Origin: Limisphaerales bacterium
GTDB taxonomy: Bacteria > Verrucomicrobiota > Verrucomicrobiia > Limisphaerales > UBA11358
DNA: 35,609 nt
Direction of reading: 5' to 3'
Assembly: GCA_003151855.1 (NCBI GenBank)
Contig: PLYV01000098.1
Span: forward strand, 5,536-41,144
A program made the position numbers and the translations under genes. The notes below the pieces were generated by a model. The model made no database searches and was not told where the DNA came from. It saw nothing but the letters and a program-made list of their open reading frames with translations. Shown here one piece after another: positions 14,363 through 33,371 of the stretch (positions within the stretch are counted from its first letter, which is position 1; each line of letters starts with the position of its first letter).

Positions 14363-15400
14363 ATGTCGTCAGATTTGGGAAGTCGTGGGTTCCCGGATGG
14401 CCGAGAGCATCACGGAAAACGACGCTTGAACCAGCCCGACCATTTGTCCTTGCGCCTCATGCGCCTGAAATCCCCGGAAGAACTGGAGTTCAAGGGGGAC
14501 GCGCTGAATTTTTTGTTCGGCAAAAGCGGCGCGGGCAAATTCGCCTCGCCCCGCGCCACGCACCGGCTGGCGGCGGGCGATATCCTGGTTTTCAACGGCG
14601 TGACCGGCGGCAAAAGCGGCGTCGGCGACGGCAAGAGTGAATTCCAATTTTGGACCTTTTCCATCTCCTTTGAAAACCTGCTGCCGCTGTTCGCCAGCCA
14701 CGAAATCAGCCTGCTGCATTACCTCGCCGAAAACCTCAAGGCCACCCGTTTTTTTGCCGCGCGCACGCCGCTGGCGGCGGACTGCCAGCGGCTGCTCGCG
14801 GAGGTGCCGGCGGATTTTGACCTGGATCATCGCGGGCAGTTGCTCCGCATCGCCGCCAGCGTTTTGGCTTCTGAATTCAAGGCGATTCAGGCGCAGCGCG
14901 GCGATTCCGCCGGGCCGGACGACCACGTCGCCCAGGTGTTTGAAAGGCTGTCCGCGTCCGACCTTATCAATCTTTCCGTCGGCGAGCTGGCGGGCCGGTT
15001 CAGTTGCAGCCGCCGGCATTTGAACCGGTTGTTTCACCAGCATTTCGGCGTGTCCGTGGCCTCCCTGCGCATGGAGATGCGGCTGCTCAAGGCGGTCTCG
15101 CTGCTGCGCGACGCGAACGCCAAAATCATCAACGTCGCCGAGGAGTGCGGCTTCAACCATCTCGGCCTGTTCAACACCTGTTTCAAGCGGCGCTTCGGCG
15201 TCAGCCCCGGCCAGTGGCGCAAGTCCGCCCTCAAGGCCGAGGATGCGTCGCTGCAAAATATGGACGACGCCAAAACGGCGGCGCCGCTGCCGGCCATGCT
15301 GGGCGCCGTCGCCAGCAAGATCAGCGGCGGCACGGAAATCCTGGCCAATTTGCAGCGGCGGAACCTGTTGTCGGCCGGGCCGGCGCGGGCAATCGAATGA
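14363..15400 (+). CDS. AraC-family transcriptional regulator
   Basis: A 345-residue regulator. The C-terminal double helix-turn-helix spans about residues 190-290, including INLSVGELAGRFSCSRRHLN, LFHQHFGVSVASLRMEMRL, INVAEECGFNHLGLFNTCFK and the closing RRFGVSPGQWRKSA. The N-terminal half looks like a cupin-type sensing domain with the phrase HRLAAGDILVFNG. A tail of about 55 residues follows the DNA-binding domain. The ATG at 14363 is the longest reasonable start; an ATG at 14459 would remove the first strands of the sensor domain. Position directly before the export operon suggests it controls that operon. The ligand is unknown. Confidence 0.85.
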   Translation: MSSDLGSRGFPDGREHHGKRRLNQPDHLSLRLMRLKSPEELEFKGDALNFLFGKSGAGKFASPRATHRLAAGDILVFNGVTGGKSGVGDGKSEFQFWTFSISFENLLPLFASHEISLLHYLAENLKATRFFAARTPLAADCQRLLAEVPADFDLDHRGQLLRIAASVLASEFKAIQAQRGDSAGPDDHVAQVFERLSASDLINLSVGELAGRFSCSRRHLNRLFHQHFGVSVASLRMEMRLLKAVSLLRDANAKIINVAEECGFNHLGLFNTCFKRRFGVSPGQWRKSALKAEDASLQNMDDAKTAAPLPAMLGAVASKISGGTEILANLQRRNLLSAGPARAIE

Positions 15401-16789: not shown

Positions 16790-17460
16790 ACCGCCGCCGC
16801 CATTTTTCGCGCCTGAATTTGACGTGGCTTGGCCTCGTCGCGCTGCTCGCGTTTTTGCTGCCGGGAAACTCGTTCGCGGCGGACACCAATAATTTCGTGA
16901 TGGACAACACATCCCTCCGCGTCAGCGCGATGGATGACAAATACCGTTTGTCCGTCGGCGACCAGTTGAGCTTCCAAGTCATGGAGGACGAGGAAGACCC
17001 GAAGCTGCTGACCGTCACCGATTCCGGCGATTTGCAGGTTCCTAACATCGGGCGTTTTCCGGCGGCGGGCAAGACGTGCAAGCAATTGGCCGCCGCCCTC
17101 AAGGTGGAACTGGAAAAAACTTATTATTACCACGCGACGGTCATTGTGACGGTGGACGCCAAGCCGCGCAGCAGCGGCAAGATTTACATCGTCGGCGCCA
17201 TTCGCGGGCCGGGCTCGCAGGACATCGGCGGCGACGAGACGCTGACCGTGAGCCGCGCCGTCCTGCGTGCCGGCGGCTTCACGGAGTTTGCCGACCAGAA
17301 AAATGTCCGCGTCACGCGCGTGCCGGCGGCGGGCGGGGACGCGAAGAAAGTTTTCACCGTGAACGTCGCCCAGGTTTTTGAAAAGGGTAAGACTGAGAAC
17401 GATCTGGAGTTGCTGCCTGGCGACCTGATTTTTGTGCCCGAACGGATGATCCGGTTTTGA
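16786..17460 (+). CDS. Periplasmic polysaccharide export (OPX/Wza-like) protein
   Basis: A 224-residue protein with a signal peptide (LGLVALLAFLLPGNSFAAD) and a Poly_export domain (YRLSVGDQLSFQVMEDEED, then DLQVPNIGRFPAAGKT). A SLBB-type domain with GKIYIVGAIRGPGSQDIGG follows, and the protein ends LELLPGDLIFVPERMIRF. It has no lipobox cysteine, and nothing follows the last domain, so the C-terminal amphipathic helix with which E. coli Wza crosses the outer membrane is absent. At 224 residues it is much shorter than Wza (about 380). It should therefore work in the periplasm together with another outer-membrane pore. It overlaps the barrel gene upstream by four bases; the Wzc-like gene starts five bases downstream. 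Confidence 0.9.
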   Translation: MNRRRHFSRLNLTWLGLVALLAFLLPGNSFAADTNNFVMDNTSLRVSAMDDKYRLSVGDQLSFQVMEDEEDPKLLTVTDSGDLQVPNIGRFPAAGKTCKQLAAALKVELEKTYYYHATVIVTVDAKPRSSGKIYIVGAIRGPGSQDIGGDETLTVSRAVLRAGGFTEFADQKNVRVTRVPAAGGDAKKVFTVNVAQVFEKGKTENDLELLPGDLIFVPERMIRF

Positions 17461-17465
17461 ACTGC

Positions 17466-19625
17466 ATGAAAGATTTGATCCCCATTTCGCCTTCGGATTC
17501 GGGCCTGCAACTGCTGGAGCCGATGCGGTCGGGCAACCCGGAGCCGGCGGCGCCCAAGTTCCGCGTCCAGAAACTGTGGATGTTTCTGCGCCAATACTGG
17601 TGGATTCCGGTGGCCACGCTGACGTTGAGCCTGAGCGTGGCCGTGGTGGTTTTTTTCCGCACGCCGCCGGTGTTTTATTCCGTCGGCAGCCTGTGGGAGA
17701 CGGAAAAATTGCGGCTGCCCGACGGCGCGGCGTTTGCCGAGGATCGGGAACGTTACATCGGCACGCAGAGCGACGTGCTCCGCAACAAACAGCTTCGCGA
17801 CCAAACGCTGAACCGGATGCGGGCGACGGACACCAACAGCATCGTCCTCGACGAAAATGGCGATCCGCTAGCGGTCGAAATCGAGGTGGATTCCGCGCCC
17901 AAAAGCGCGGTGTATCTGGTGCAGGCGTCGAGCGCCAATCCCGCGTTCACGCCGCGCTATCTCAACGCGCTGATGGAGCAGTATCTTGAATTTCGCAAGA
18001 ATGTGCGCAGCCGCGTTTCGTCCGGCACGCTCGCCTCGATTTCCGAGCAGGTGCAGCGGCTCGAACGCGACACGAAGGTTGGCCAGGAGGCGCTCAACGA
18101 ATACGAGCGCAGCAACAACCTCACGATGATGCAGGAAGAAAGCGCGCAGGAGGTCGCCTACCTGACGAAGCTGAAAACGGAGCTATCCGACTACCAATTG
18201 CAATACAAGCTGCTCGCCGCCAAAGAGCTTGAGGACAACGCTGGCGACGCCAACCGGGCGAATTCCAAGGACACCATTTTCGACACGTTGAACAATAATA
18301 ATTCCAGCCGCAATGCCGGCGGCGACCGCCAGAGCGCGGACAAGGAAATCAAGCTGCTCAAGCTCGAGCGCGCGCGGCTCGCCAAAAACCTGCGCCCCAC
18401 CCATCCCAAAATGGTCAAGCTGGATCAGGACATCAACCGTGCCGAGCGGCTCGTCGAGGTTTATCATCGCCAGAGTCAGGATCAAATCGCCGCCGCGCGC
18501 GAGGCGTTGCAAATCAAAATTGACAGCCTCGATCAGGCCGTCAAGGACTGGGAAGAAAAAATCGCCAATGTCAACGAGCGCATCGCCGTTGCCGACGGCC
18601 TCAAGCAAAACGTCCTGCGAAATCAAGGTCTTTACGATCGCCTGACCGCGCTGCTGCAAAACGTGGACATCAGCCGCAACATTGACCAGGAAACGCTGGC
18701 CATCCTCGAACCCGCCTCGCCGGCAAGGCGTTCCTATTCGCAGGCCAAGACGATGCTGACGCAGGCATTCATCGTCGGGCTTGGCCTCGGCTTGGGCATC
18801 GTTTTTATCATCACGCTGCGCGACGACCGGTTCAACTCGATGAACGAGGTCACCGAGCGTTTCGGCGACACCGTCGTCGGGCAGGTGCCGGAAATGCCGG
18901 AGCTGGCGCAGCCCGGCCCGCTCGTGCTGCTGCACGACAACGACGACCGGCATATGTTCGCCGAGTCGTATCGCAATCTCCGCTCCGCGCTGCTTTACCT
19001 CACCGTGGACGGCAAGCGCCCGCGCGTGCTGCTCGTCACCAGCGCCGTGCCGAACGAGGGCAAGTCCACCATTGCCACCAACCTCACCCGCGCGATGGCG
19101 CTCGGCGGCTCGAAGGTGCTGCTGATTGACGGCGACCTGCGCAAGGGCCACATCCATGACCGGCTCGCGGTGCCGTCCAAGCCCGGCCTGCACGAACTGC
19201 TCCGCCGGCAGTCAAGTCTGGAAGCCGTCATTCAAAAAACCGACCTGCCGAATCTTTTCTTCATCGCGCGCGGCAACGTCTGCCGCAATCCCGGCGATTT
19301 GTTTTTGCAGCCGCTGTTCGATGAACTGCTCGCGCAGATCCGCGAGCAATATGACTACGTCGTGCTCGATTGCAGCCCGGTGTTCGCGGCGGACGATTCC
19401 TCCACGCTCGCGCCGAAGGTGGACGGCACGCTGTTTGTCGTGCGCAACCAGTTCACGCACGCCCGCGCCGTGCGCGAGGCGTTGGAGCTTTTGTTCCAGC
19501 GGCAGGCGCGCGTGCTCGGCCTGATTTTGAACCGCGCGGACTCGACCGCCAGCAACTACTACGCCTATAAATACGCGGAGTATTACGCGGCCAGCACCGA
19601 GGCGGCGGACGAAAAAAAATCTTGA
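17466..19625 (+). CDS. Wzc-like polysaccharide co-polymerase with tyrosine kinase domain
   Basis: A 719-residue inner-membrane protein controlling chain length and export. The N-terminal Wzz domain starts with a membrane segment (about residues 45-65, WIPVATLTLSLSVAVVVFF). A long periplasmic coiled coil (about 180-410) follows, then a second membrane segment (FIVGLGLGLGIVFIITL). The cytoplasmic BY-kinase has Walker A SAVPNEGKST (526-535, Lys533), the A' motif VLLIDGDLRKG and Walker B YVVLDCSP (Asp635). The tail SNYYAYKYAEYYAAS is a tyrosine cluster, the expected autophosphorylation site. The ATG at 17466 is chosen; a TTG at 17457 overlaps the previous stop. All kinase motifs are intact. Confidence 0.93.
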   Translation: MKDLIPISPSDSGLQLLEPMRSGNPEPAAPKFRVQKLWMFLRQYWWIPVATLTLSLSVAVVVFFRTPPVFYSVGSLWETEKLRLPDGAAFAEDRERYIGTQSDVLRNKQLRDQTLNRMRATDTNSIVLDENGDPLAVEIEVDSAPKSAVYLVQASSANPAFTPRYLNALMEQYLEFRKNVRSRVSSGTLASISEQVQRLERDTKVGQEALNEYERSNNLTMMQEESAQEVAYLTKLKTELSDYQLQYKLLAAKELEDNAGDANRANSKDTIFDTLNNNNSSRNAGGDRQSADKEIKLLKLERARLAKNLRPTHPKMVKLDQDINRAERLVEVYHRQSQDQIAAAREALQIKIDSLDQAVKDWEEKIANVNERIAVADGLKQNVLRNQGLYDRLTALLQNVDISRNIDQETLAILEPASPARRSYSQAKTMLTQAFIVGLGLGLGIVFIITLRDDRFNSMNEVTERFGDTVVGQVPEMPELAQPGPLVLLHDNDDRHMFAESYRNLRSALLYLTVDGKRPRVLLVTSAVPNEGKSTIATNLTRAMALGGSKVLLIDGDLRKGHIHDRLAVPSKPGLHELLRRQSSLEAVIQKTDLPNLFFIARGNVCRNPGDLFLQPLFDELLAQIREQYDYVVLDCSPVFAADDSSTLAPKVDGTLFVVRNQFTHARAVREALELLFQRQARVLGLILNRADSTASNYYAYKYAEYYAASTEAADEKKS

Positions 19626-19646
19626 GGCCGATGGTGGCTTCAAACT

Positions 19647-19715
19647 CCGGGCAACCGGCGATGGGCGAACCAAGCCGTTGCCCGGCTTTCGGGAGACCAG
19701 GCGGTAATTCTCCCG
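19647..19715 (+). promoter_or_regulatory. Structured RNA leader before the assembly operon, with an ops-like motif
   Basis: Two hairpins stand in the 196-base gap after the Wzc-like gene. The first pairs CCGGGCAACCGGC (19647-19659) with GCCGTTGCCCGG (19674-19685) with one bulged base. The second pairs CGGGAGA (19690-19696) with TCTCCCG (19709-19715). The loop of the second contains GGCGGTAA (19700-19707), which differs at one position from the RfaH recruitment core GGCGGTAG. Neither hairpin has a T run, so they are not standard terminators. No known riboswitch consensus was recognised. Confidence 0.5.
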
Positions 19716-19821
19716 GACGAAGATGAAAAAACTAGACAACCGGTGTGTAGATTCCCGGCGCAAAACTGCGCTGCGAATTGACCGGGACGAAGTCCGCCCG
19801 CAAATATTTTTTACCTGAACC

Positions 19822-21573
19822 ATGTCCATGCTGTTTTCATTTTTCCGGCTGCTCAAGCGCTGCTACCGCATGGCGCTGCCGTATGGCCGCGCGAAAATGC
19901 TCGGCGTGCTGGGGCTGATTCTGTTCAACGGCGTGCTACAACTCGTCGGTGTTACGTCCGTCTTTCCGTTCTTCGCGCTCGCCGCCGATCCGGAACGCCT
20001 GCAAAAATCCGCGCTTGGCAGCCGGATTTTGCATCAGCTCCCGCCGCTCACGACCAATCAACTGTTAGTCTGGACCGGCTGCTTCGCCATCGCGATGCTC
20101 GTCCTCGCCAGCGTCGGCAGCCTGGTGAGCGAGGTGCTGCGCATCCGCTACGCCTACGGTTTCTGCCATTGGTTGCGCGGGCGTTTGTTTGAATCTTACG
20201 CCAGCCAGCCGTATGCGTTTTTTCTCCGCCGCAACACCGCCGAGCTGAACCAGCGGATGTTTGATGTGCAGATGTTCATCCAGAACGTCCTGCTGCCCGT
20301 CGGCGAAATCCTGACGCGGCTGGTCATCGTCGTGCTGCTCATCGCGGCGGTCTTCGCGGTGCAGCCGTGGGTGGCACTCGGCTCCACCGTCATCTTCGGC
20401 GGATTTTATCTGGTGGTTTTCATCTGGCTGCGGCCTCGGACGCGCAGGGTTTCCAATGGCCTGCAGCATCACACCGTCGGTTTCTGGAAAAACACCAGCC
20501 AGTTTTTGCAGGGCATCAAGACCGTGCTCGTCCACGGCAAAAGCCGGCGCTTCATGGATCGCGCGCTGGAGCATTCCGCACGCATCGGCGATTTCTCCAG
20601 CAAAATCCCGATCTACAGCAACGGCCCGCGCTACCTCATCGAGCCGATTGCCTTTGGCGGGCTGATGGCGGTCGTCGTGTTTCTCGCGCTGCGCGGGCGC
20701 TCGTTCTCCGACATTTTGCCGAACCTCACCGTGATGGCGTTCGCCGGCTACCGGCTGCTGCCCGCGCTGCAACTGCTCTACGCCCAACTCGTCACCATCG
20801 CGGCGAACAACTACACCTTGAAGCAGCTTGAAGAGGAAATTCTCGAAATCGAAAAACTGGTTCCCACCGCCACCGCCGCTTCATCCGCCGCGCCGCTGAA
20901 GTTCCAAAACAAATTGCGGCTGGAGCAAATCGCCTTCCAATACGCCGGCGCGACGGCGCCGGTGCTGAAAGATTTTTCCATCGAAATCACGAAGAATGAA
21001 TCCGTCGGCATCGCCGGCTCGTCCGGCTCCGGCAAATCCACGCTGGTGGATTTGATTCTCGGTCTGCACCAGCCGCAGTTCGGCGCGATCCGCGTGGACG
21101 AAGAAACGCTCACCAGAAAAAACCTCGAAGCGTGGCGGCGCCTGATCGGTTATGTGCCGCAGGATATTTACCTGCTCGACGACACCATCGAGGCGAACAT
21201 CGCCTTCGGCATTGACCCGAAAGAAGTGGACACTGCCGCGTTGCGCGAGGCGGCGCTGGGCGCGCAGATTCTGGATTTCATCGAAAAGGAACTGCCGCAG
21301 GGAATGCAAACGACCGTCGGCGAACGCGGCGTGCGCCTGTCCGGCGGCCAGCGCCAGCGCATCGGCTTGGCTCGCGCGCTTTACCATCGCCCGCAGGTCT
21401 TGATTTTGGACGAGGCCACCAGCGCGCTCGACCATCAGACCGAACTCGCTGTGATGGAAACCATCCACCGGCTGCAAGGCACGCTGACCATCATCACCAT
21501 CGCGCACCGTTTGAGCACGCTGGAGCGCTGCGACCGCGTCATCCGGCTGGACAAGGGCAAAATCACCTCGTGA
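19822..21573 (+). CDS. ABC transporter, fused permease and ATPase (PglK/MsbA-like, candidate flippase)
   Basis: A 583-residue half-transporter. The N-terminal membrane domain has about six helices (residues 1-320). The nucleotide-binding domain has Walker A GSSGSGKS (399-406), the Q-loop IGYVPQDIYLLDDTIEANI, the signature LSGGQRQRIGLARAL (506-520), Walker B VLILDEATSALD and the H-loop TIAHRLSTLERC. Such fused proteins beside glycosyltransferases are often lipid-linked oligosaccharide flippases of the PglK kind. No Wzx or two-gene ABC-2 exporter appears in the window, so this is the likely translocase. The ATG at 19822 is followed by another at 19828; either may be used. Confidence 0.92.
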   Translation: MSMLFSFFRLLKRCYRMALPYGRAKMLGVLGLILFNGVLQLVGVTSVFPFFALAADPERLQKSALGSRILHQLPPLTTNQLLVWTGCFAIAMLVLASVGSLVSEVLRIRYAYGFCHWLRGRLFESYASQPYAFFLRRNTAELNQRMFDVQMFIQNVLLPVGEILTRLVIVVLLIAAVFAVQPWVALGSTVIFGGFYLVVFIWLRPRTRRVSNGLQHHTVGFWKNTSQFLQGIKTVLVHGKSRRFMDRALEHSARIGDFSSKIPIYSNGPRYLIEPIAFGGLMAVVVFLALRGRSFSDILPNLTVMAFAGYRLLPALQLLYAQLVTIAANNYTLKQLEEEILEIEKLVPTATAASSAAPLKFQNKLRLEQIAFQYAGATAPVLKDFSIEITKNESVGIAGSSGSGKSTLVDLILGLHQPQFGAIRVDEETLTRKNLEAWRRLIGYVPQDIYLLDDTIEANIAFGIDPKEVDTAALREAALGAQILDFIEKELPQGMQTTVGERGVRLSGGQRQRIGLARALYHRPQVLILDEATSALDHQTELAVMETIHRLQGTLTIITIAHRLSTLERCDRVIRLDKGKITS

Positions 21574-21631: not shown

Positions 21632-22756
21632 ATGCCTGATTCAACCAAAGCTTCGCTGATCAATGCTCACACGGGTTTGAGAGGGATTGCTGCCATGAAC
21701 GTATTTATTGCGCACCTGGCGTTGGCTGATCTTTTTCCAAACTCAAATGCGATAAGGTTAATTTCCCCCGTGTTCTTGTGGCATATTCAATGTGTAGATT
21801 TATTTTTTATCTTAAGCGGCTTTGTGCTGAACTGGGTTTATTTTAGGGAGGCAGACATCAACTGGAAAGGTTACGGAGTGGCGCGGATTGCGCGGATTTG
21901 CCCGCTTTATTTTGCCACGCTGTTTTTTCTATTAGCGCTGGATTTGTATTCGTCAGTGTTCCATCACATCCCGAGCGCTAATTTTGGGGGCGGCCGATTG
22001 GCGTCCAATATTTTGATGGCTTCCGGGCTGGCGAGCGACCCCGGAGCGGCGTGCATCAATTCGCCGGCTTGGTCTATTTCCGTTGAAATGGCCCTCTACA
22101 TAGCGCTGTTCCCACCACTCTGTTATTTGAACCGGAAAATCGGATCTCGGCTCAACATCTTGCTTGGGCTGGGCATCTTGGCCACGACTGGTTTGGTATT
22201 GTGCTACACCGGGCCGCAAGTAATCCGCGTTCCCTCGTATTTATTTTGTCAGGCGCGCGGAGTTTTTGGGTTTATGGCTGGATTCTTTTGCTGTTCCATC
22301 TGGCGGCTAGTGCGCCTTAAAAATCACACGTTTAACGTCATGAGCTTGACCGCATCGGCCTGCGCCATTTTGGCGATTTTAGAGATCATCCCCAAATGGC
22401 TGCTCCCGGCGATTTTTCCATTCCTCGTGTTTTCAACCGTCAATAGCACTGGCTGGATATCCCGTATTCTGGGATCCCGGTTGTTTGACTATTTTGGGGA
22501 AAGATCTTACTCCATTTATTTATGGCATTTTCCCATGATTATTTTCTTCAACCGCCTGTTCTTGTATGGGCATAAGGAACTGGACGGCCACTATTCCCCG
22601 CAACTGGCGGGTAAAACCGTTCTGCTGATTATTTTTTCAACCCTGCTGATTTCAGAGCTGTCATTCCGCTGCTTTGAATGTCCAGCGAGGGAATGGATGC
22701 GGCAAAAGTTGGCTGGCCGCCAGAAAAAGCTTGCCGAGTTGACCGTTCTGCAATGA
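21632..22756 (+). CDS. Acyltransferase-3 family membrane protein (OafA/YrhL-like)
   Basis: A 374-residue protein with about ten membrane helices. It is expected to O-acylate (often O-acetylate) sugar residues of the polymer. The family start NAHTGLRGIAAMNVFIAHL contains the catalytic-type His after a Gly-Leu-Arg-Gly block. WHIQCVDLFFILSGFVLNWV and SPAWSISVEMALYIAL are also characteristic. GERSYSIYLWHFPMI is near the end. The ATG at 21632 has GGAAAATAAAG upstream. The gene is clearly more A/T-rich than its neighbours and uses codons rare in them, which suggests recent acquisition. Confidence 0.92.
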   Translation: MPDSTKASLINAHTGLRGIAAMNVFIAHLALADLFPNSNAIRLISPVFLWHIQCVDLFFILSGFVLNWVYFREADINWKGYGVARIARICPLYFATLFFLLALDLYSSVFHHIPSANFGGGRLASNILMASGLASDPGAACINSPAWSISVEMALYIALFPPLCYLNRKIGSRLNILLGLGILATTGLVLCYTGPQVIRVPSYLFCQARGVFGFMAGFFCCSIWRLVRLKNHTFNVMSLTASACAILAILEIIPKWLLPAIFPFLVFSTVNSTGWISRILGSRLFDYFGERSYSIYLWHFPMIIFFNRLFLYGHKELDGHYSPQLAGKTVLLIIFSTLLISELSFRCFECPAREWMRQKLAGRQKKLAELTVLQ

Positions 22757-22783
22757 TTCAATAGTAGTTGGTTTGAATATTGA

Positions 22784-23977
22784 ATGAATAAAGAGGAGAA
22801 AAAACGGGTTTTGCTCGCCAGCATTGCCCCGCCGCAAAACGACTGCGGCGTGCGCGTCGTTTTGCACCGGCATCTAGTCGAACGGAATCCCTTCGAGATG
22901 TGCGTCGTCACCAACGCCGATTTTTACCGCGATCATCCCGGCGGCACGCAGCTCACGTTGCCGGCACCGTTGCAGCGGCTGCGCAAAAGCCGGTTCGGCC
23001 CCGTCCTGTCGCCATGGCTGATGGATTACGAAACCCTGATCTGGCCGCTGGCCAACCCGCGCAAATTTGACGAGGCGGTCGAGCGCTTCCAGCCGGACGT
23101 CATCCTGGCACTCGCGGACAATTGCCTGAGTTCGTTCGCCCTGCGGTCGGCGCGGAAAAATAAAATTCCTCTCGCCGGCCTGTTTTTGGACTGGGTGCCG
23201 ATCATGAAAGGTCTGCACGGCCATGCATGGACCCAGCCGCGCCTGAGCCGGCGCTTCGAGAATTTTTATCGCGCGTGCGACCTGGCCTTCTGCACCAGCG
23301 ACGGGATGCAGGAAGTTCTGGGCGCACACCCGAACTGCCACGTCATTTATCCGATGCCCGGCCGCCACCGGGTTCCGGAAAATATTTCCCCGCCGAAGAC
23401 CGGCAAGTTCCGCCTCGCCTACGTCGGCTCGGTGCAGAATTTTTACGGCCGGATGATCTGCTCGCTCATCGAAAAAATATCGCTGCTGGCAGACATGGAA
23501 ATCATCGTCGTCGGGCCGGACGCCGACTGGCCGGCGGAAACTTTGCAGCGCGCCAAAGCCAAAGGGATTTATCTCGGCTTCAAGCCGCCGGAGGAGGCCG
23601 CTAGCGTGCTGGCCGGGGCGGACGCGCTGCTCGTGGTGATGAGTTTTGAGCCGGAACACCGGCGTTTCATGGAGACCAGCTTCACCACGAAATTTCTGGA
23701 TTACAGCGCCTACGGCAAGCCCATCCTTCTGTGGGGGCCGGAATATTGCACGCCGGTGCGCGTGGCGCGGCGCGGCGGCGGCGCGAGCGTGGTGGATGTG
23801 CCGGATGCCAACGCGGTGCTGGCCGCGTGCCGCCAAATCGCGACGGAGGCACCGGTGCGGGAAAGCCTGACGGAGCAGGCAAAGAAATTGCACACCGGTT
23901 TGTTCAATCCGGATCGCCTGCAAAATATATTTGTGACCGAGCTGGAAAAGCTGGCCGCGTCCGCCAAACGAAAATGA
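22784..23977 (+). CDS. GT-B fold glycosyltransferase
   Basis: A 397-residue protein of the GT1/GT4-like group, probably adding a sugar to the growing repeat unit at the cytoplasmic membrane face. The C-terminal donor-binding domain starts at [20 protein letters not shown]. It contains [38 protein letters not shown] and the late [20 protein letters not shown] segment. The N-terminal domain has [20 protein letters not shown] and an acceptor-side [25 protein letters not shown] context surrounds the ATG at 22784. The stop overlaps the next start by ATGA. Donor and acceptor are unknown. Confidence 0.85.
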
Positions 23978-24639
23978 AAAAGCCTAACCTCCTGCGCCGC
24001 GCCGGCCTGCGCGTGCTGCTTTGGATTTTGGGCGACGAGCACGCCAGCCGGACCGCCGAGATCAACCGCGTCTTGTATGAACGCGCGGCGGATGGCCGGC
24101 AACTGGCCCAATTCTCGCATCCGCAGGTGGAGGTCGGCGAACATACCTACGGCCTGAAACGGGAAAGTTTTTTCGCCTATCATCCGGACGACCGGGTGCG
24201 GATCGGAAAATTTTGCAGCCTCGCCGACGGCGTCCGTTTTGTCTTTGGCGGCCACCGGTTGGACACCGTTTCCACCTTTCCTTTTCGCGCCATTTGTTTC
24301 GGTGACGCGCCCCATGCCGACGCCACCAGCCACGGCGAAATCGTCGTGGGCCACGACGTGTGGATCGGCGTCAACGCCGTCATCCTGTCCGGCGTCCATA
24401 TCAGCAACGGCGCCGTGGTGGCGGCGGGCGCGGTGGTGACCAAGGACGTGTCCGCCTACGCCGTGGTCGGCGGCGTGCCGGCCAAACTCATCAAAATGCG
24501 CTTCGAACCGGATCAGATCGCCGCGCTCAAAAAAATCCAGTGGTGGAACTGGCCGCTCGAAAAAATCCGGGCGAACCTGGATCTGTTTTACGGCTCGCCG
24601 CCGGCATTCCTGCAACGCCACACGCCATCGCCCAAATGA
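23974..24639 (+). CDS. Hexapeptide-repeat acetyltransferase (CatB/Vat-like)
   Basis: A 221-residue left-handed beta-helix acetyltransferase. The xenobiotic acetyltransferase-type signature [18 protein letters not shown] leads into [11 protein letters not shown], with His94 as the expected catalytic base. Hexapeptide turns follow in [20 protein letters not shown] and [17 protein letters not shown], then the typical [16 protein letters not shown] closure. In a polysaccharide operon it more likely acetylates a sugar than a drug. The ATG at 23974 overlaps the preceding stop; the longer upstream frame overlaps the glycosyltransferase gene and has no family similarity. The next gene also overlaps by ATGA. 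Confidence 0.9.
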
Positions 24640-25574
24640 ATTCCGTCTGTCTGGCGATCTTGAATTACAACGGCCGGCAGCATTTGGAACACCTGCTGCC
24701 CACCGCCGTCGCCGCCGCGAAAAAATGCCCGGTCAAATGTTCCGTGCTGGTGCTGGACAACCGGAGCCCCGAACCGGATGTGGAATGGGTGCGCCAGAAT
24801 TTCCCGACCGTGAAAACCGTGGTCGCGCCGGAAAATGATTTTCTGTTTTCCTACAATTGGCTCCTCGCGCAACTGCCGGACGAAATCGTGGTGCTGCTGA
24901 ACAACGACCTCCGCCTCGACGAGAATTTTATGACGCCGCTGCTCCGGCATTTTCACGCGGCGGATGTCTTCGCCGTGTCCGCATCCAGTTTCGACTGGGA
25001 TGGAACTGAGCGCACCATCGGCCCGGCGCGGCTGGATTTTCAGAACGGATTTTACCGCTGGTATTACGAGCCGCAGCGGCAGGAACTTTGCCACACGCTG
25101 TTCGCCTCCGGCGGCTTCATGGCGGTGGATCGGAAAAAATTCCTCGAACTCGGCGGCTTCAACCGACTGTTTCATCCGGCATACTGCGAGGATTTGGATC
25201 TCGGTTTCCGCGCGTGGCGGCGCGGCTGGCGCTCGGTTTACGAACCCGCCAGCGTCGTCCGGCACCGCGAGCAGGCGAGTTGGAAAGCCAGCCCCGCCGC
25301 GCGGCCAAACAAATTAAACCTGCGCCACTCGTTGTTTTTCCAATGGTCGAGCCTGCCGATGCAGTGCGACCGGCCCGCACGCTGGTGGAGCCTCGCCAAA
25401 CTCATCGGCGGCGGCCTGCTGCGCGGCGACAATCTCTGGCTGAAAATTTATCCGCGCGCCTGGCGTGACTGGCTGAAAATGCGGAAACAATTTTCCACGC
25501 TGAAAGTTTCGGAAGCGGAACTGGCTGCGATCCAAAAAGCCATCGCCGCGCCCGTGCCGCCGGTTGCCAACTGA
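24636..25574 (+). CDS. Family 2 glycosyltransferase (rhamnosyltransferase-like)
   Basis: A 312-residue GT-A enzyme. The N-terminal [20 protein letters not shown] strand-loop and [16 protein letters not shown] nucleotide-binding segment are classic for GT2. [17 protein letters not shown] carries the metal/nucleotide site (NND). [19 protein letters not shown] and the catalytic [13 protein letters not shown] complete the fold. A C-terminal tail of about 80 residues with aromatic, possibly amphipathic helices may attach to the membrane. The ATG at 24636 overlaps the previous stop. Sugar specificity cannot be told. Confidence 0.9.
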
Positions 25575-25575
25575 A

Positions 25576-26817
25576 ATGCGCGTCGCTCACTACAATACTT
25601 TTGCCGACGGCGGCGCGGCCGTCCTGATGCTGCGCCTGCACGCCGCGCTGCGCGAACTCGGCCACGACAGCCGCGTCCGCCACCGGAAAGGCAATCTCCG
25701 GTTGCCTGACGCCGAGCGATTGGAATTTTGCCGGAGCTGGCTCGACCGCCAGCGCGAACGCATTCGCCAGCGTTTTGAAACCTGGGCGCTGCGTCCCGAT
25801 GCGCCGTCATTTTACGGACGCTACCGCTCGCCGCAGCCCACGCCACCGCCCGCGGCAGATGCCACGGCGGACATCGTGCATCTGCACTGGGTCAGCCAAT
25901 GGCTCGACCTGCCGAGTTTCTTGGCCGGCATCCCGGAACACGTTCCGATTGTCTGGACCATCCATGACATGAGCGCGCTGGCCGGCGGCTGTTTTCTGGA
26001 TTTCGGCTGCGACCAGCTTGGGAAAAAATGCGGCGTCTGCCCGTTGTTCAAACCGCCGTTCAATAAAATTCTTGCCGGGCCGGAATGGGAGCGCCGTTCC
26101 CGCGCGCTCGCGGGCCGGAAAATTTTTGCCGTGGGCAACAGCGCCTTCACCGCCGGCCTCATCCAAAAATCCGCCCTGTTCAACGGCGTGGAAAAAATTG
26201 TGACAATTCATCCGGCGTTGAAAATGGACGAGTTCACCCGGCACGACAAAACGGAAGCACGCCGGTTGCTCGGCATCGCGCCCGGTCGTTTGGTGCTCGG
26301 CTTCGGCGCGGCGGCACTGACGGACATCAACAAAGGTTTTAACCGGTTTTGCGAAGTCGCCGAAAAAGCCGGGCAAAAGCTCGGCGGCGTGACCGCGCTC
26401 GTTTTTGGCGACGGCTTGCCGGCGGCGGGCAGCGCGCAGGTGAAAATTCATGGCCCCGGCAAATTGTCCTCGCCGGCGCAGTTGAGCCTCGCGTATTCGG
26501 CGATGGATGTTTTTGTCGTCACCTCGCGCATGGAAACTTTCGGCCAGGTGGCCACCGAGGCGCAGGCGTGCGGCACGCCGGTGTGGGCGTTCGATGTCGG
26601 CGGCCTGCGCGACGCGATCCAACCCGGCGCGACCGGAAACTTGATTCCGTTTCCCGACACCGGCCAAATGGCGGAAGGCATTTGCGCGCAAGCCCGCGCT
26701 GGAAATCTGCCGGCGATGGGCGACCGCGCCGCCGCCTGGGTGCGGCAAACCTTTCCGGTGGAAAAAATGGCGGAACAATACCTGCAACTTTACCGCGACG
26801 CGTTGGCAAAAAAATGA
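25576..26817 (+). CDS. Family 4 glycosyltransferase
   Basis: A 413-residue GT-B enzyme. The N-terminus MRVAHYNTFADGGAAVLMLR includes the Gly-Gly-Ala loop. DIVHLHWVSQWLDLPSF and PIVWTIHDMSALAGGCFLD, followed by a Cys-rich CDQLGKKCGVCP segment, are typical of WcaC-like GT4 proteins. The donor domain has FGAAALTDINKGFNRFCEV and the motif MDVFVVTSRMETFGQVATEA, holding the conserved Glu pair. The ATG at 25576 lies one base after the previous stop. It overlaps the GT8 gene downstream by ATGA. Confidence 0.92.
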   Translation: MRVAHYNTFADGGAAVLMLRLHAALRELGHDSRVRHRKGNLRLPDAERLEFCRSWLDRQRERIRQRFETWALRPDAPSFYGRYRSPQPTPPPAADATADIVHLHWVSQWLDLPSFLAGIPEHVPIVWTIHDMSALAGGCFLDFGCDQLGKKCGVCPLFKPPFNKILAGPEWERRSRALAGRKIFAVGNSAFTAGLIQKSALFNGVEKIVTIHPALKMDEFTRHDKTEARRLLGIAPGRLVLGFGAAALTDINKGFNRFCEVAEKAGQKLGGVTALVFGDGLPAAGSAQVKIHGPGKLSSPAQLSLAYSAMDVFVVTSRMETFGQVATEAQACGTPVWAFDVGGLRDAIQPGATGNLIPFPDTGQMAEGICAQARAGNLPAMGDRAAAWVRQTFPVEKMAEQYLQLYRDALAKK

Positions 26818-27791
26818 GCACGCCGATGAACATCGTTTTCTGCGCCGACCGCCGCGTGCTGCCGGGGTTGCACGTCGCGATGTATTCGCTGCTGGCGCGC
26901 ATCGGCGCGGCGGTGACGGAGACACGGTTTTTTCTTTTCAGCGACGAACTGGCTGACGCCGATTTGGCATTGCTGCGACAGACGCTTTCATCCGTCGGAA
27001 AACAATTCACGCTCGAACAGCGCCGGGTGGACGCGAAGCTGTTCGCCGGTTTTCCGCCATTGAACGGCAGTTGCGCCGCGTATTACCGGCTCGTCGTGCC
27101 GCAGGCTTTGGACGTGGAACGGTTTCTTTATCTCGACGCCGATACGCTGTGCGACGTGGACGTGGGCGGGCTGAACGCGCTGGAGTTGCACGGCGCGCCC
27201 GCCGCGCTGGTGCCGGAAGCGCCGCTGGCCGGCGCGATTGACCGGTTCGTCGCGGAGCAACTCGGCAACAGCGCGACGGAGCCTTACTACAACTCCGGCG
27301 TGATTTTGGTGGACGTGCCGGAATGGCGGCGGCAGCGGGTCACGGAACGCGCGATGGAATACATCGCCGCGCAGCGTCCGCCGTTCCACGACCAGTCCGC
27401 GCTGAATGTGGTGCTGCGCGGTAACGCCGTGACGCTGGACGAGCGTTTCAACTGCATCGCGAACATGAGAAAACACTGGCCGGCGCTGCGGCAAACCGGC
27501 GGTTCCATCAACCGACTGGTGCATTTTGTGGATTACCCGAAGCCGTGGGATTTGCTTGGCGAGTTTGTGAATCCGCATTACCGGCTCTGGCGCGCGGCGC
27601 TGAAAAAAACCGCATTAAAAAATTTCCGCTCGTGGCAAAACACGCCGGCACGGAAATTTCCAAAAACCGGCAAGGCGTGGAGCGGCTACAAAAAATCTTT
27701 GAAAGACCGCTGGCTGTTTGCCGGTTATTCGCGCGGCTGGCTGAAACAGGTGAAGGGTGTGCCAGCTCAAAACGGGGAGGCGGCCGCATGA
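26814..27791 (+). CDS. Family 8 glycosyltransferase
   Basis: A 325-residue GT-A retaining transferase related to lipopolysaccharide galactosyl- and glucosyltransferases. NIVFCADRRVLPGLHVAMYS is the N-terminal strand and loop. FLYLDADTLCDVD holds the metal-binding DxD (Asp108-Ala-Asp110). EPYYNSGVILVDVPEWR and PPFHDQSALNVVLRG are signature blocks, with LVHFVDYPKPWD near the catalytic end. The C-terminal 60 residues are basic (RSWQNTPARKF and following) and may bind the membrane surface. Overlaps of four bases with both neighbours suggest coupled translation. Confidence 0.92.
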   Translation: MSTPMNIVFCADRRVLPGLHVAMYSLLARIGAAVTETRFFLFSDELADADLALLRQTLSSVGKQFTLEQRRVDAKLFAGFPPLNGSCAAYYRLVVPQALDVERFLYLDADTLCDVDVGGLNALELHGAPAALVPEAPLAGAIDRFVAEQLGNSATEPYYNSGVILVDVPEWRRQRVTERAMEYIAAQRPPFHDQSALNVVLRGNAVTLDERFNCIANMRKHWPALRQTGGSINRLVHFVDYPKPWDLLGEFVNPHYRLWRAALKKTALKNFRSWQNTPARKFPKTGKAWSGYKKSLKDRWLFAGYSRGWLKQVKGVPAQNGEAAA

Positions 27792-28720
27792 ACATCCAAG
27801 CACCTTTCGGTTTCGTGACCGGCTGCCATGCCGGCGACAAGTTCATGGTTCAGGCCACGCTGGCGAGCATCAAACATTTTTGTCCGGGCGTGCCGATATG
27901 TCTGGTGGTGGATGGAAATTTCAACGTTTCAGATTTGGTGCAGGCATACGGCGTGATCGTCCTGCGCGTGTCCGACCTGCCCTCGGCGGAGATGCGCCAG
28001 CTCATCGGCGGCAACTACCGCGCCAAGCTGGCGGCGATGTGGGAAGGGCCGTTTGATTATTTCGTGTGGCTGGATTCGGACGCGATTGTGTGGGGCGACT
28101 TCACCGCGCAAGTCCGGCGCGAACTGGATTTCCAGATTTTCTGGAGCGAGGTTTCTGTGCCGGCCGATGCCAGGGAAATTCCCACCTGGCTGCCGCATTT
28201 TTATTTCGACCCGGAAAAATTGCGGCCGTTCGACGCCGGCTTCGACTGGCGCGGGCTGCCCTATTTTTGCACCGGCACCTTCGCCTGCCGGCGCAACGCC
28301 ATTCCGTTTTCCGAGTGGGCGAAGCTCGAAGCGTGGGCGCGGCAGGTGCCGGGACTGTTTGCGTGGGGTGAAATGGGCATGTTGAATTACGCCGTCCATT
28401 CGTTGACGCAGCGCGGAGCCATCAAAAGCGGCATGGCCGATTTGCAGCACATCTGGGGGCACCACGGCACGGCGGAATTGACGCGCGACTGCGCTGGCAG
28501 CTGGCATTTTCCAGAAAATATTTCCCGGCCGCGCGTTGCGCATTTCTGCGGACGCAAGCCGTTCCTGTTTGATCGCGGCGCATATTCGCGGCCGTTCACC
28601 ATCGCGCGGCTGGCGCACCACCGCCGACACCACGGTGAATTCGGCGCGTGGCTGGCCGTCCTCAACGAAGACCGCCGGGTGCTGGCCGGCAAGCTGCGGA
28701 AACAGATTTTTAGAAAATAA
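27788..28720 (+). CDS. Putative GT-A glycosyltransferase, unassigned family
   Basis: A 310-residue protein that begins FGFVTGCHAGDKFMVQATLA and has PICLVVDGN as the second strand. YFVWLDSDAIVWGDF holds a DxD-type site. Later parts show GLPYFCTGTFACRRNAIPFS and HIWGHHGTAELTRDC, then RVAHFCGRKPFLFDRGAYSR. The layout resembles nucleotide-diphospho-sugar transferases, but I do not recognise a numbered family. A GGGGAGG ribosome binding site precedes the ATG at 27788, which also overlaps the previous stop. The next gene starts eight bases after its end. Confidence 0.75.
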   Translation: MNIQAPFGFVTGCHAGDKFMVQATLASIKHFCPGVPICLVVDGNFNVSDLVQAYGVIVLRVSDLPSAEMRQLIGGNYRAKLAAMWEGPFDYFVWLDSDAIVWGDFTAQVRRELDFQIFWSEVSVPADAREIPTWLPHFYFDPEKLRPFDAGFDWRGLPYFCTGTFACRRNAIPFSEWAKLEAWARQVPGLFAWGEMGMLNYAVHSLTQRGAIKSGMADLQHIWGHHGTAELTRDCAGSWHFPENISRPRVAHFCGRKPFLFDRGAYSRPFTIARLAHHRRHHGEFGAWLAVLNEDRRVLAGKLRKQIFRK

Positions 28721-28728
28721 TTTTTCCC

Positions 28729-29610
28729 ATGGGTGAAAACATTTTACAGACAAACGCGCCGCTGCTGGCCTTTTTGATTCCCTTCGCCCCGCGCCGGACC
28801 AAGCTCAAATGGGATCTCGCCTGCCGGCTGCTGCACCAGACGCTCAAGTCCATCCAAAACTCGGCGGACGGAAATTTCTGCGTGGTGGTGGCCGGCAACG
28901 AACCGCCGGACTTCGAGGTCGCGCTGGACGCGCGGTTTTGTTTTGTGTCCGTGCCGCCGATGCCGCCGGCGCATCCGCAGCCGGCCATCGCGGGCGTGCT
29001 GGACAAGTTGTCAAAAATCAGCGCCGGCTGGAATCACGCGAAGGCGAAGTGGAACCCGCGTTATGTGATGAAGCTGGACTCGGACGACCTCATCAGTTCC
29101 AAGCTGGTCGGCTGGCTCGCCCAAAACAGCGGCGCGCCCGGCTACCTCATTTCGCAGGGCTGGCTGTGGCGGATGAACCTGCGCCGGGTGCTCCAGCGCA
29201 CGGAAACGCTGGATCGCATCTGCGGCTCGTGCCTCATTACGCGTAGCGACCTGGTGGAACAGACCGGGCCGTTCCGCACCGAGACCGAGGGCGTGGAGTT
29301 GAGCGAAGAGAACGCAAACTTTGCCAAGGCCGACCATTACTCGCTGGTGCCCGGCTCGGCCACCAGCACGCTGCTGGTGAACGACAGCCATCAGCGTTAC
29401 GCGGCTCAGTTCGCCTATCTCGGCCACCAACTGACCGCCGTGCCGTTTCCCGCCGTGGTTTACCGGATGGGCAACGCCGACAGCGTCAGCGGTGCGAAAT
29501 GGCACATCCACACGCTGCGAATGCTGCTCGGCGCCGTGCGCCGGATGCGACCCATCACGCCCGGCCTGCGCCAGGAATTCATGCTGGACGCCAAACAAAT
29601 CATTAAATAA
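28729..29610 (+). CDS. Putative rhamnosyltransferase-like GT-A glycosyltransferase
   Basis: A 293-residue protein with FLIPFAPRRTKLKWDLACRL at the N-terminus, FCVVVAGNEPPDFE as a second strand and YVMKLDSDDLISSKLVGWLA with the metal-binding DSDD. This pattern, with the later GYLISQGWLWRM and CGSCLITRSDL blocks, fits the 'putative rhamnosyl transferase' (PF11316-like) group from memory. A trailing segment LVNDSHQRYAAQFAYLGHQL is also conserved-looking. It lies between another GT and the FkbM gene with gaps of eight and six bases. Substrate unknown. Confidence 0.75.
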   Translation: MGENILQTNAPLLAFLIPFAPRRTKLKWDLACRLLHQTLKSIQNSADGNFCVVVAGNEPPDFEVALDARFCFVSVPPMPPAHPQPAIAGVLDKLSKISAGWNHAKAKWNPRYVMKLDSDDLISSKLVGWLAQNSGAPGYLISQGWLWRMNLRRVLQRTETLDRICGSCLITRSDLVEQTGPFRTETEGVELSEENANFAKADHYSLVPGSATSTLLVNDSHQRYAAQFAYLGHQLTAVPFPAVVYRMGNADSVSGAKWHIHTLRMLLGAVRRMRPITPGLRQEFMLDAKQIIK

Positions 29611-29616
29611 TCACGC

Positions 29617-30372
29617 ATGAAACCCAACATCACTTCCCGACTTTTGAGAAACCTTAAACGGCTGCGGATGCTTTTCTTCGGCGGGCTGTCGCCGCGCGGC
29701 GCGCTGGAAGAAATGCGGGCGATGCGCGTGAGCTATTCGCAGTTCGGCGAGGACCTGGTGGTGCACAACCACTTTGGCTGCATGGGCCACACGAGCGGCC
29801 GGTTCATGGATGTCGGCGCGTTCCATCCGTTCAAGCTGTCCAACACGAAGCTGCTGAGTTCGTTCGGCTGGCGCGGCGTCAACATTGACTGCGACCCGGA
29901 AAAAATCGCGCGCTTTGAAAAACAGCGCCCGCACGACCACAACGTCTGCGCCGCCGTGTCGAACACCGCCGAGGAACTGGTCTGGCTGCATTATGCGGAA
30001 GGCACCACCGACCGCCTCGCGGCGCGCGGCGAACTAAACCTGGTCTCGGCCCAGGGCGAGCAGCCGCTGAAAAGCACGCCCGTCCAGGCCCTGACGCTGA
30101 CGCAGATTCTGGACGCGTCGCCGTTTCGCGGAGAACATTTCCACTACCTGAACATTGATTGCGAAGGCCATGACCTCGCGGTGTTGCAGGGGCTGGATTT
30201 CCGCCGTTACGCGCCTGACCTCATCACCATCGAGGCCTTGAGCGAAACCGCCCAAGCCAGCCTGACTAGTTTTCTTGAACCGCTCGGCTACCGCCTGACC
30301 GACAGCGTGCGGCTGACGTTGTTCTTCAAAAAATGCGCGGCGGAAAATTCCACCGGTGTGCGACCGGCCTGA
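29617..30372 (+). CDS. FkbM-family methyltransferase
   Basis: A 251-residue SAM-dependent enzyme. SQFGEDLVVHNHFG, then GRFMDVGAFHPFKLSNTKLL, is the standard FkbM start and SAM-binding strand. RGVNIDCDPEKIARFEKQRP is the acidic second strand. HYLNIDCEGHDLAVLQGLDF is the diagnostic late motif (usually D-x-E-G-x-E). In polysaccharide loci such enzymes O-methylate sugar residues. It is embedded in the glycosyltransferase operon with gaps of six and nine bases on either side. Confidence 0.9.
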   Translation: MKPNITSRLLRNLKRLRMLFFGGLSPRGALEEMRAMRVSYSQFGEDLVVHNHFGCMGHTSGRFMDVGAFHPFKLSNTKLLSSFGWRGVNIDCDPEKIARFEKQRPHDHNVCAAVSNTAEELVWLHYAEGTTDRLAARGELNLVSAQGEQPLKSTPVQALTLTQILDASPFRGEHFHYLNIDCEGHDLAVLQGLDFRRYAPDLITIEALSETAQASLTSFLEPLGYRLTDSVRLTLFFKKCAAENSTGVRPA

Positions 30373-30381
30373 AATTATTGC

Positions 30382-31236
30382 ATGACATTTTCGGTGATGA
30401 TTACGACGAAGAACCGCGCGGCGGATTTGCGCCGCACGCTGGCGGTGTTGCGCGCACTGAACCCGGCGTCGCTGGAGATTTTGATCACCGCCGACGGTTG
30501 CACGGATGACACGGTGGAAACCGTGCGCCGCGAAAGGCCGGACGCGCGGCTCATCGTCAACGAGACCGGCCGCGGCTCCGTGGCGTCGCGCGACCGCATG
30601 ATGCGTGAGGCTCACGGCGACTTGGTGCTGGCGCTGGACGATGACAGTTATCCGGAGCAGGTGGACTGCCTCGCGCGCATCGCGCCGTTGTTTGAGCAAA
30701 ACCCCAAGCTGGCCATCGCACATTTTCCGCAGCGCACGGACGAATATCCAGCGACGCTCACGCAGACGGATTTCGGCCCGGCGCAGCCGACGCGGTCGTT
30801 CGCCAATTCCGGCGCGGTGCTGCGGCGCACGGTTTATCTGGCGCTGCCCGGTTTCGAGCCAAAGTTTTTCCACATGTATGAGGAGCCGGATTACGCCCTG
30901 CAATGCGTGGGGGCCGGTCACGAGGTGCTTTACTCACCGCTCATCACCATCCGGCACCATTACTCCGGCCAGACGCGGAGCGAACTGCGCAACCACCACC
31001 GCCACGCGCGGAATGAATTTTGGGGCGTGCTGCTGCGCTGCCCGTGGCCGCAGGGAATCGGGCTGGCGGGCTACCGGATATTTTCCCAATTTCGTTTTGC
31101 CTGCACGCGCGGACTCGGCTGGGTCGTGCGCGAGCCGGTTTGGTGGTGGCAGGCGGCGCGGGGCATCGGCTACTGTCTGGGCCGGCGGCAGGTCATTCCA
31201 TGGTCGCGTTACCGGGCCTGGCTCCGGCGACCGTGA
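30382..31236 (+). CDS. Family 2 glycosyltransferase
   Basis: A 284-residue GT-A enzyme. FSVMITTKNRAADLRRTLAV, LEILITADGCTDDTVETV and GDLVLALDDDSYPEQVD (DDD metal site) are standard GT2 blocks. FANSGAVLRRTVYLALPGF and FHMYEEPDYALQCVGAGHEV give the acceptor and catalytic region. The C-terminal 70 residues are Trp/Arg-rich and hydrophobic in places, possibly a membrane anchor. It is the last gene of the densely packed run; the beta-helix gene begins 26 bases later. Confidence 0.92.
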   Translation: MTFSVMITTKNRAADLRRTLAVLRALNPASLEILITADGCTDDTVETVRRERPDARLIVNETGRGSVASRDRMMREAHGDLVLALDDDSYPEQVDCLARIAPLFEQNPKLAIAHFPQRTDEYPATLTQTDFGPAQPTRSFANSGAVLRRTVYLALPGFEPKFFHMYEEPDYALQCVGAGHEVLYSPLITIRHHYSGQTRSELRNHHRHARNEFWGVLLRCPWPQGIGLAGYRIFSQFRFACTRGLGWVVREPVWWWQAARGIGYCLGRRQVIPWSRYRAWLRRP

Positions 31237-31262
31237 GCTACTTGGCGCGAAGGTTGCTAAAT

Positions 31263-33311: not shown

Positions 33312-33371
33312 AGCTGGCCGGCGGCGCGGCGTAAATAATTTCCAATCCGGCGCCGGCCGCGGCGGAACACC

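Follow-up and report, generated by a model that had tools for sequence, protein, structure and literature searches.

The intergenic gap at positions 19626-19821 of the window (the whole 35,609-nucleotide stretch of DNA analysed here) contains three structured stretches. Two of them are hairpins that had been described in the original prediction for this gap; the third, absent from that prediction, spans positions 19747-19799 and is the conserved part. Judged from comparative sequence data, this third stretch is probably a cis-acting recruitment element for the NusG paralogue encoded upstream in the same locus. Because it is found in Verrucomicrobia almost only together with the paralogue, it is likely to serve as the boarding site of that protein on RNA polymerase. 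The element is conserved in sequence, its helices covary, it keeps a characteristic location and orientation, and it co-occurs with the paralogue even across contigs. Table 1 lists the features discussed below.

Table 1. Coordinates of the element, its parts, and the neighbouring features in the window
Feature	Position	Strand	Remark
Specialised NusG paralogue, NGN + KOW-like, 162 aa	12006-12494	+	Proposed trans-acting factor; Pfam NusG E 1.9e-8
Polysaccharide co-polymerase / BY-kinase gene	17457-19625	+	Upstream of the element
First hairpin of the original prediction	~19647-19685	+	Conserved counterpart not found
Second hairpin of the original prediction, GGCGGTAA in loop	19690-19716	+	Motif not conserved
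Candidate NusG-paralogue recruitment element, whole	19747-19799	+	CM R1 62.0 bits, E 1.1e-13
Upstream hairpin, 5' arm GTAGATTCCC, consensus GTAGNTTCGC	19747-19756	+	Pairs with 19773-19782
Variable loop or stem extension	19757-19772	+	3 to ~20 nt in relatives
Upstream hairpin, 3' arm GCGAATTGAC, consensus GCGAAN'YGAC	19773-19782	+	Nearly invariant
Mini-hairpin GAC-GAA-GTC, GNA triloop closed by C-G	19786-19794	+	CAC/GTG, GGC/GCC, CGC/GCG in relatives
YG step, candidate pause -1/+1	19795-19796	+	Position counts; pausing putative
ABC flippase gene, PglK/MsbA-like	19822-21573	+	First gene 3' of the element
Remaining polysaccharide assembly genes: acyltransferase, glycosyltransferases, methyltransferase	21632-34613	+	Proposed beneficiary

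The gap separates the BY-kinase/Wzc-type gene from the ABC flippase gene, and the latter heads a series of acyltransferase, glycosyltransferase, and methyltransferase genes that reaches ~34.6 kb. The two hairpins without T runs that had been described are both present, and the gap as a whole folds at -75.2 kcal/mol versus -62.7 kcal/mol for shuffled sequences (z -2.7). A search of positions 19560-19900 for an intrinsic terminator, that is, a GC-rich hairpin followed by a T run, found none, and a sigma-70 promoter was not found in the gap. A comparison with Rfam 15 gave no match at the gathering score and, for the gap, none at E<=5.

The NusG-like gene that had been noted upstream in the locus is confirmed by a Pfam NusG score above the cut-off of that model. 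Its product is a specialised member of the NusG superfamily distinct from the housekeeping NusG, whose model gives 29.9 versus a cut-off of 135.7. The best-scoring named family is UpxY (NF033644, E 5e-21), with 75.4 bits versus a cut-off of 100; the LoaP model reaches 50.9 bits versus 125 and the RfaH equivalog model 49.7 bits versus 144.5. The nearest solved sequence by profile is 8f5g, titled as a NusG-RNA complex, and the fold matches NusG and RfaH. An AlphaFold model predicts the NGN domain with confidence and the KOW domain as beta strands with low pLDDT.

Anatomy of the element: the parts follow one another as a hairpin, a 3-nt linker, a GNA-loop mini-hairpin (SRC-GRA-GYS), and a pause-like end (YG). 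This organization was derived from 99 loci by position counts (n=97) and arm matching. The resulting consensus has a 5' arm of GTAGNTTCGC or GTCAATCGC, a linker [CG]GR, a mini-hairpin S[AG]C-GRA-G[TC]S, and the YG step, often followed by CCC. Position 23 is Y in 97/97 sequences and position 24 is G in 65/97, counts to be read with the YG preference of the search pattern in mind. In the covariance model CM R1, built from 56 sequences that include the window's own element, the runner-up match within the window scores 8.3 bits versus 62.0 for the element. A BLAST search of the gap against relatives of the same genus matched one short stretch, ~19771-19803, in gaps that follow orthologous kinase genes and are otherwise dissimilar. 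GNA triloops closed by a C-G pair are unusually stable in DNA. A diverged element in genome G158 (L314, reverse strand), ~805 nt past the paralogue stop codon, reads GTCAACTCGC AA TGCGAATTGACGG GGC-GTA-GCC; its GTA loop widens the set of loops to GAA, GGA, and GTA and is consistent with a GNA triloop rule.

A separate sequence feature accompanies the element at some loci. The palindrome TTCARTYNNRAYTGAAC lies ~50-75 nt 5' of the element core, at a near-fixed distance, in 18/99 loci from several families (L203, L214, L221, L224, L226, L227, L229, L259-L261, L263, L264, L270-L274, and L278), and the same search of 1.35 Mb of flanking sequence found none. This palindrome is possibly an operator or part of a promoter.

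Both helices of the element covary, and the loop of the upstream hairpin varies as in structures formed by a single strand. In the 56-sequence alignment, the covariation score is 0.207 versus 0.093 in shuffles (0/500), and sliding the pairing partners abolishes it. Pairing of the GCGAA core with upstream sequence reaches 0.76 versus ~0.55 for dinucleotide-shuffled sequence, with a Wilcoxon p of 2e-13 that is optimistic because the sequences are related. Among the best pairs are N/N' of the upstream hairpin (AU 34, GC 9, CG 5, GU 3, unpaired 3) and the outer pair of the mini-hairpin (CG 29, GC 23, unpaired 4). In four loci, one of them CGC/GCG, G-C replaces A-U as the middle pair of the mini-hairpin, and the copies in G482 and G526, which come from outside the order and are not in the model, read GGC-GAA-GCC. 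The pairing is imperfect in places: an A-G mismatch prevails at pair 3-40, a bulge blurs pairs 7 and 8, and 11/97 mini-hairpins carry a G-G outer mismatch.

The distribution of the element was followed at increasing phylogenetic distance. Within the genus, the pattern TGCGAATTGACCGGGACGAAGTCTGCC with up to three mismatches found one copy per genome in 11/49 genomes, and a reversed-pattern control gave zero matches. A looser pattern matched 86/320 genomes of the order, its control giving 2 matches in total, and the covariance model at E<=1e-3 matched 117/320. The model was built without paralogue information, and the presence of the paralogue was taken from a separate profile search. Across the order, the paralogue is present in 111/117 genomes with the element (95%) versus 76/203 others (37%), with p 5e-27; stratified by family, the joint count is 106 observed versus 80 expected, with p ~6e-18; within the genus, 14 genomes have both the element and a close paralogue, 1 has the element only, 3 have the paralogue only, and 31 have neither, with p 1e-8, all three p-values overstating independence because the genomes are related. 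All 27 families that have the element also have the paralogue (27/27), none having the element alone. In the lone exception within the genus, G063, the contig that carries the element has a paralogue fragment within a few bases of its end.

The two partners are also arranged in a preferred order. Where they share a contig, 25/27 elements lie on the same strand as the paralogue and downstream of it, and 12 of these 25 follow its stop codon by 32-152 nt. Some of these were found only by the covariance model, the new copies 133-152 nt past the stop codon being those of G221, G222, G224, and G225. In several genomes of the genus the element and the paralogue are on different contigs, which shows that the association is more than tight linkage. 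Outside the order, 12/288 sampled genomes match the model at E<=0.01; the paralogue is found at E<1e-25 in 9/12 matched genomes versus 4/12 unmatched ones, and in G482 and G526 the element lies ~630-660 nt after the paralogue gene.

Exceptions occur in both directions. Five genomes have the element without a detected paralogue (G049, G091, G104, G163, and G179), all drafts of 82-95% completeness. In 76 genomes of the order the paralogue is present and the element was not found at E<=1e-3. Among the paralogue-only exceptions, G158 and G228 contain diverged element-like copies, and the contigs of G025 and G034 break off shortly after the paralogue. Nearly the whole of genus g2 (family f2; L321-L332, L311, and L312) has a close relative of the paralogue, and no element was found there, which suggests that the g2 paralogue has acquired a different role or acts through a different site. 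In g2, a pfkB-like sugar kinase gene, recognised from its translation, directly follows the paralogue within ~60 nt. The window's own genome carries a second, weaker copy of the element (L301 3556-3597, minus strand, equivalent to G000:C208; 36 bits) of the GGC-GAA-GCC type; this copy precedes a short ORF near a tyrosine-recombinase-like gene and does not head a polysaccharide operon.

Neighbouring genes provide a control for this association. A kinase homologue lies upstream of the element in 41/99 loci and the paralogue gene in some others. A Pfam scan of ten downstream proteins returned an epimerase, an ABC-2 permease, an exosortase, a carbamoyltransferase, an O-antigen ligase, a nucleotidyl transferase, DUF218, and, in one weaker locus, a purH-like gene, with two proteins unmatched; the downstream genes, for the most part polysaccharide or exosortase genes, fit long surface-polysaccharide operons. 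Inside the genus, co-occurrence with the element is about equally good for the kinase gene, the AraC gene, and the paralogue. None of the 13 genus genomes that have a kinase homologue (E<1e-60) and lack the paralogue (G063 left out) contains the element, including G018, which has the same kinase-flippase junction with 82-88% protein identity. Elsewhere, a close AraC orthologue is missing from 29/32 genomes with the element, only 3 having one at E<1e-60, and in G018 and G022 the AraC gene is present and the element absent. Among the neighbours tested, the paralogue is the best tracker of the element across families. In several genomes (G030, G060, G015, G026, and others), the tblastn matches to the kinase include a single in-frame TGA, which may reflect a local break of the frame or an alignment that runs beyond a stop.

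The original prediction had placed the recruitment site elsewhere in the gap, in an ops-like motif within the loop of the second hairpin. That motif, GGCGGTAA, is indeed present in the loop, at 19700-19707, with one mismatch to the ops core, but it is not conserved and occurs at about chance frequency: GGCGGTAR is found 2 times in the window versus 1.16 expected. Motifs of this class are common, since GGCGGTAG with up to one mismatch has 47 matches in 35.6 kb versus 27 expected; without mismatch, GGCGGTAG occurs just once in the window, on the minus strand at 30288, within the gene run. Among equivalent gaps, GGCGGTAA is missing from 23/24, the sole exception being the window's own gap, and lack of conservation of the motif in relatives was the outcome named beforehand as refuting it. 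Both its chance frequency and its non-conservation contradict GGCGGTAA as the recruitment site, and we give that reading next to no credence. The two hairpins of the prediction were likewise rejected as conserved structure, their sequence not being conserved in relatives and only 10/24 equivalent gaps folding at z below -2. GGCGGTAA falls outside the conserved element, and the candidate site starts 40 nt further 3'. The dedicated antitermination circuit with the NusG paralogue, proposed along with the motif, fares better: the argument from GGCGGTAA fails and the site was misidentified, but comparative data support the circuit. It was probably right, with the wrong site, because the co-occurrence of element and paralogue holds while the kinase and AraC genes track the element less well across families.

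The properties of the conserved element would also suit other functions. A leader RNA that acts independently of the paralogue, such as a metabolite riboswitch or an attenuator, would be structured, intergenic, and on the sense strand 5' of polysaccharide genes, as the element is, and could co-occur with the paralogue through shared polysaccharide loci, protein binding being an inferred property of the element. Such an RNA is unlikely here: kinase genomes without the paralogue, including the one with the same junction, have no element; in loci of several other families the element comes directly after the paralogue gene; and conservation is confined to short invariant core segments, with no large conserved pocket and no Rfam match found. 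A double-stranded DNA operator, for instance for the AraC-type regulator encoded at 14363-15400, would explain the inverted repeats, and the AraC gene does lie in the locus and co-occur within the genus. The absence of a close AraC orthologue from most element genomes elsewhere and the presence of AraC without the element in G018 and G022 led us to reject this candidate; a loop of 3 to ~20 nt with compensatory changes in the arms also fits a single-strand structure and not a fixed dyad, and an operator is very improbable. Imperfect inverted repeats, together with the own-genome copy near a tyrosine-recombinase-like gene, could instead indicate a recombination or mobile-element site, attC-like for example. 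The element is usually present in one copy per genome, lies on the sense strand, and has a favoured placement with respect to the paralogue gene or the kinase gene, so that we regard such a site as highly improbable.

Recruitment of the paralogue, the preferred reading, can be formulated as a sequence of steps; we infer binding by the paralogue, pausing, the strand that is recognised, and antitermination from the arrangement of the conserved parts. RNA polymerase leaving the export and kinase genes would transcribe the element, and the upstream hairpin would fold in the nascent RNA as polymerase arrives at the mini-hairpin segment. This segment resembles the consensus pause (G-11 ... T-3, Y-1, G+1), and polymerase would stall there. 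With Y-1/G+1 set at positions 23/24, the pause letters are found at G-11 in 91/97, T-3 in 95/97, Y-1 in 97/97, and G+1 in 65/97 sequences, some of them favoured by the search pattern itself. This alignment would place the mini-hairpin at -10 to -2 of the non-template strand, where the ops hairpin forms, and put the end of the upstream hairpin close to the RNA exit, ~13 nt from the RNA 3' end. The NGN domain of the paralogue may recognise the stalled complex through the GNA mini-hairpin of the non-template strand, the RNA hairpin, or both, the folding energies of the mini-hairpin as DNA or RNA not being discriminating. The paralogue would then ride polymerase through the polysaccharide assembly genes, ~15 kb in all, and suppress both pausing and termination on the way. 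A wider and distinctly tentative proposal is a phylum-wide antitermination system of Verrucomicrobiota, in which the paralogue would read a nascent-RNA hairpin and a non-template-DNA GNA mini-hairpin at the adjacent pause, uniting the DNA mode of RfaH with the RNA mode of LoaP.

The closest comparison is with RfaH/ops of E. coli (PMC5995543), which likewise pairs a NusG paralogue with a short element in the leaders of long polysaccharide operons, places a small hairpin within a consensus-pause-like sequence, and has a factor that can act in trans. The ops pause is at U11, with G12 next (PMC5995543). The element is compatible with an ops-type pause whose small non-template DNA hairpin would be read by an NGN domain. 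The sequences differ, GRSACGRAGTSYG here versus GGCGGTAGCGTG in ops; the ops core GGCGGTAGCGTG was sought in the leader and is absent, the gap having the unconserved GGCGGTAA instead. The mini-hairpin here has a 3-bp stem and a GNA triloop, whereas that of ops has one C:G pair, and the element carries an extra conserved hairpin upstream. The paralogue scores below the cut-off of the RfaH model, and its KOW domain is modelled, at low confidence, as beta strands and not in an alpha-helical, autoinhibited form.

LoaP and the dfn/mln RNA hairpin of Bacillus (PMC12691694) also combine a NusG paralogue with an RNA-hairpin-sized element 5' of a biosynthetic operon, and 8f5g, the nearest solved sequence to our paralogue, is titled as a NusG-RNA complex. 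PMC12691694 calls LoaP the sole NusG-like protein of bacteria for which a specific association with an RNA element is known. Its hairpin is of the UNCG type and has no discernible pause by itself (PMC12691694), whereas the hairpin here adjoins a pause-like mini-hairpin. A hairpin of the UNCG type was not found in the element, where loop length and sequence vary, and the paralogue falls below the LoaP cut-off. UpxY of Bacteroides capsule operons, in the portions of PMC7593976 and PMC7819879 that we drew on, resembles the paralogue in that its gene heads polysaccharide loci, and it is the best-scoring family, although the paralogue stays below its cut-off. According to the same portions, UpxY prevents termination in the leader 5' of its own gene, whereas the element lies 3' of the paralogue gene, and a conserved recruitment element of the present type is not described there.

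To judge by Rfam and the literature searched, the element is new; in outline it is ops/LoaP-like, and it is a member of neither class. PMC7593976 describes target finding by specialised NusG factors as known in detail only for RfaH. A third, widespread paralogue group with a conserved element would supply a protein and its site as a defined pair for testing, a means of marking target operons in a phylum that is largely uncultured, and a case in which the RNA recognition of LoaP and the non-template-strand recognition of RfaH may combine.
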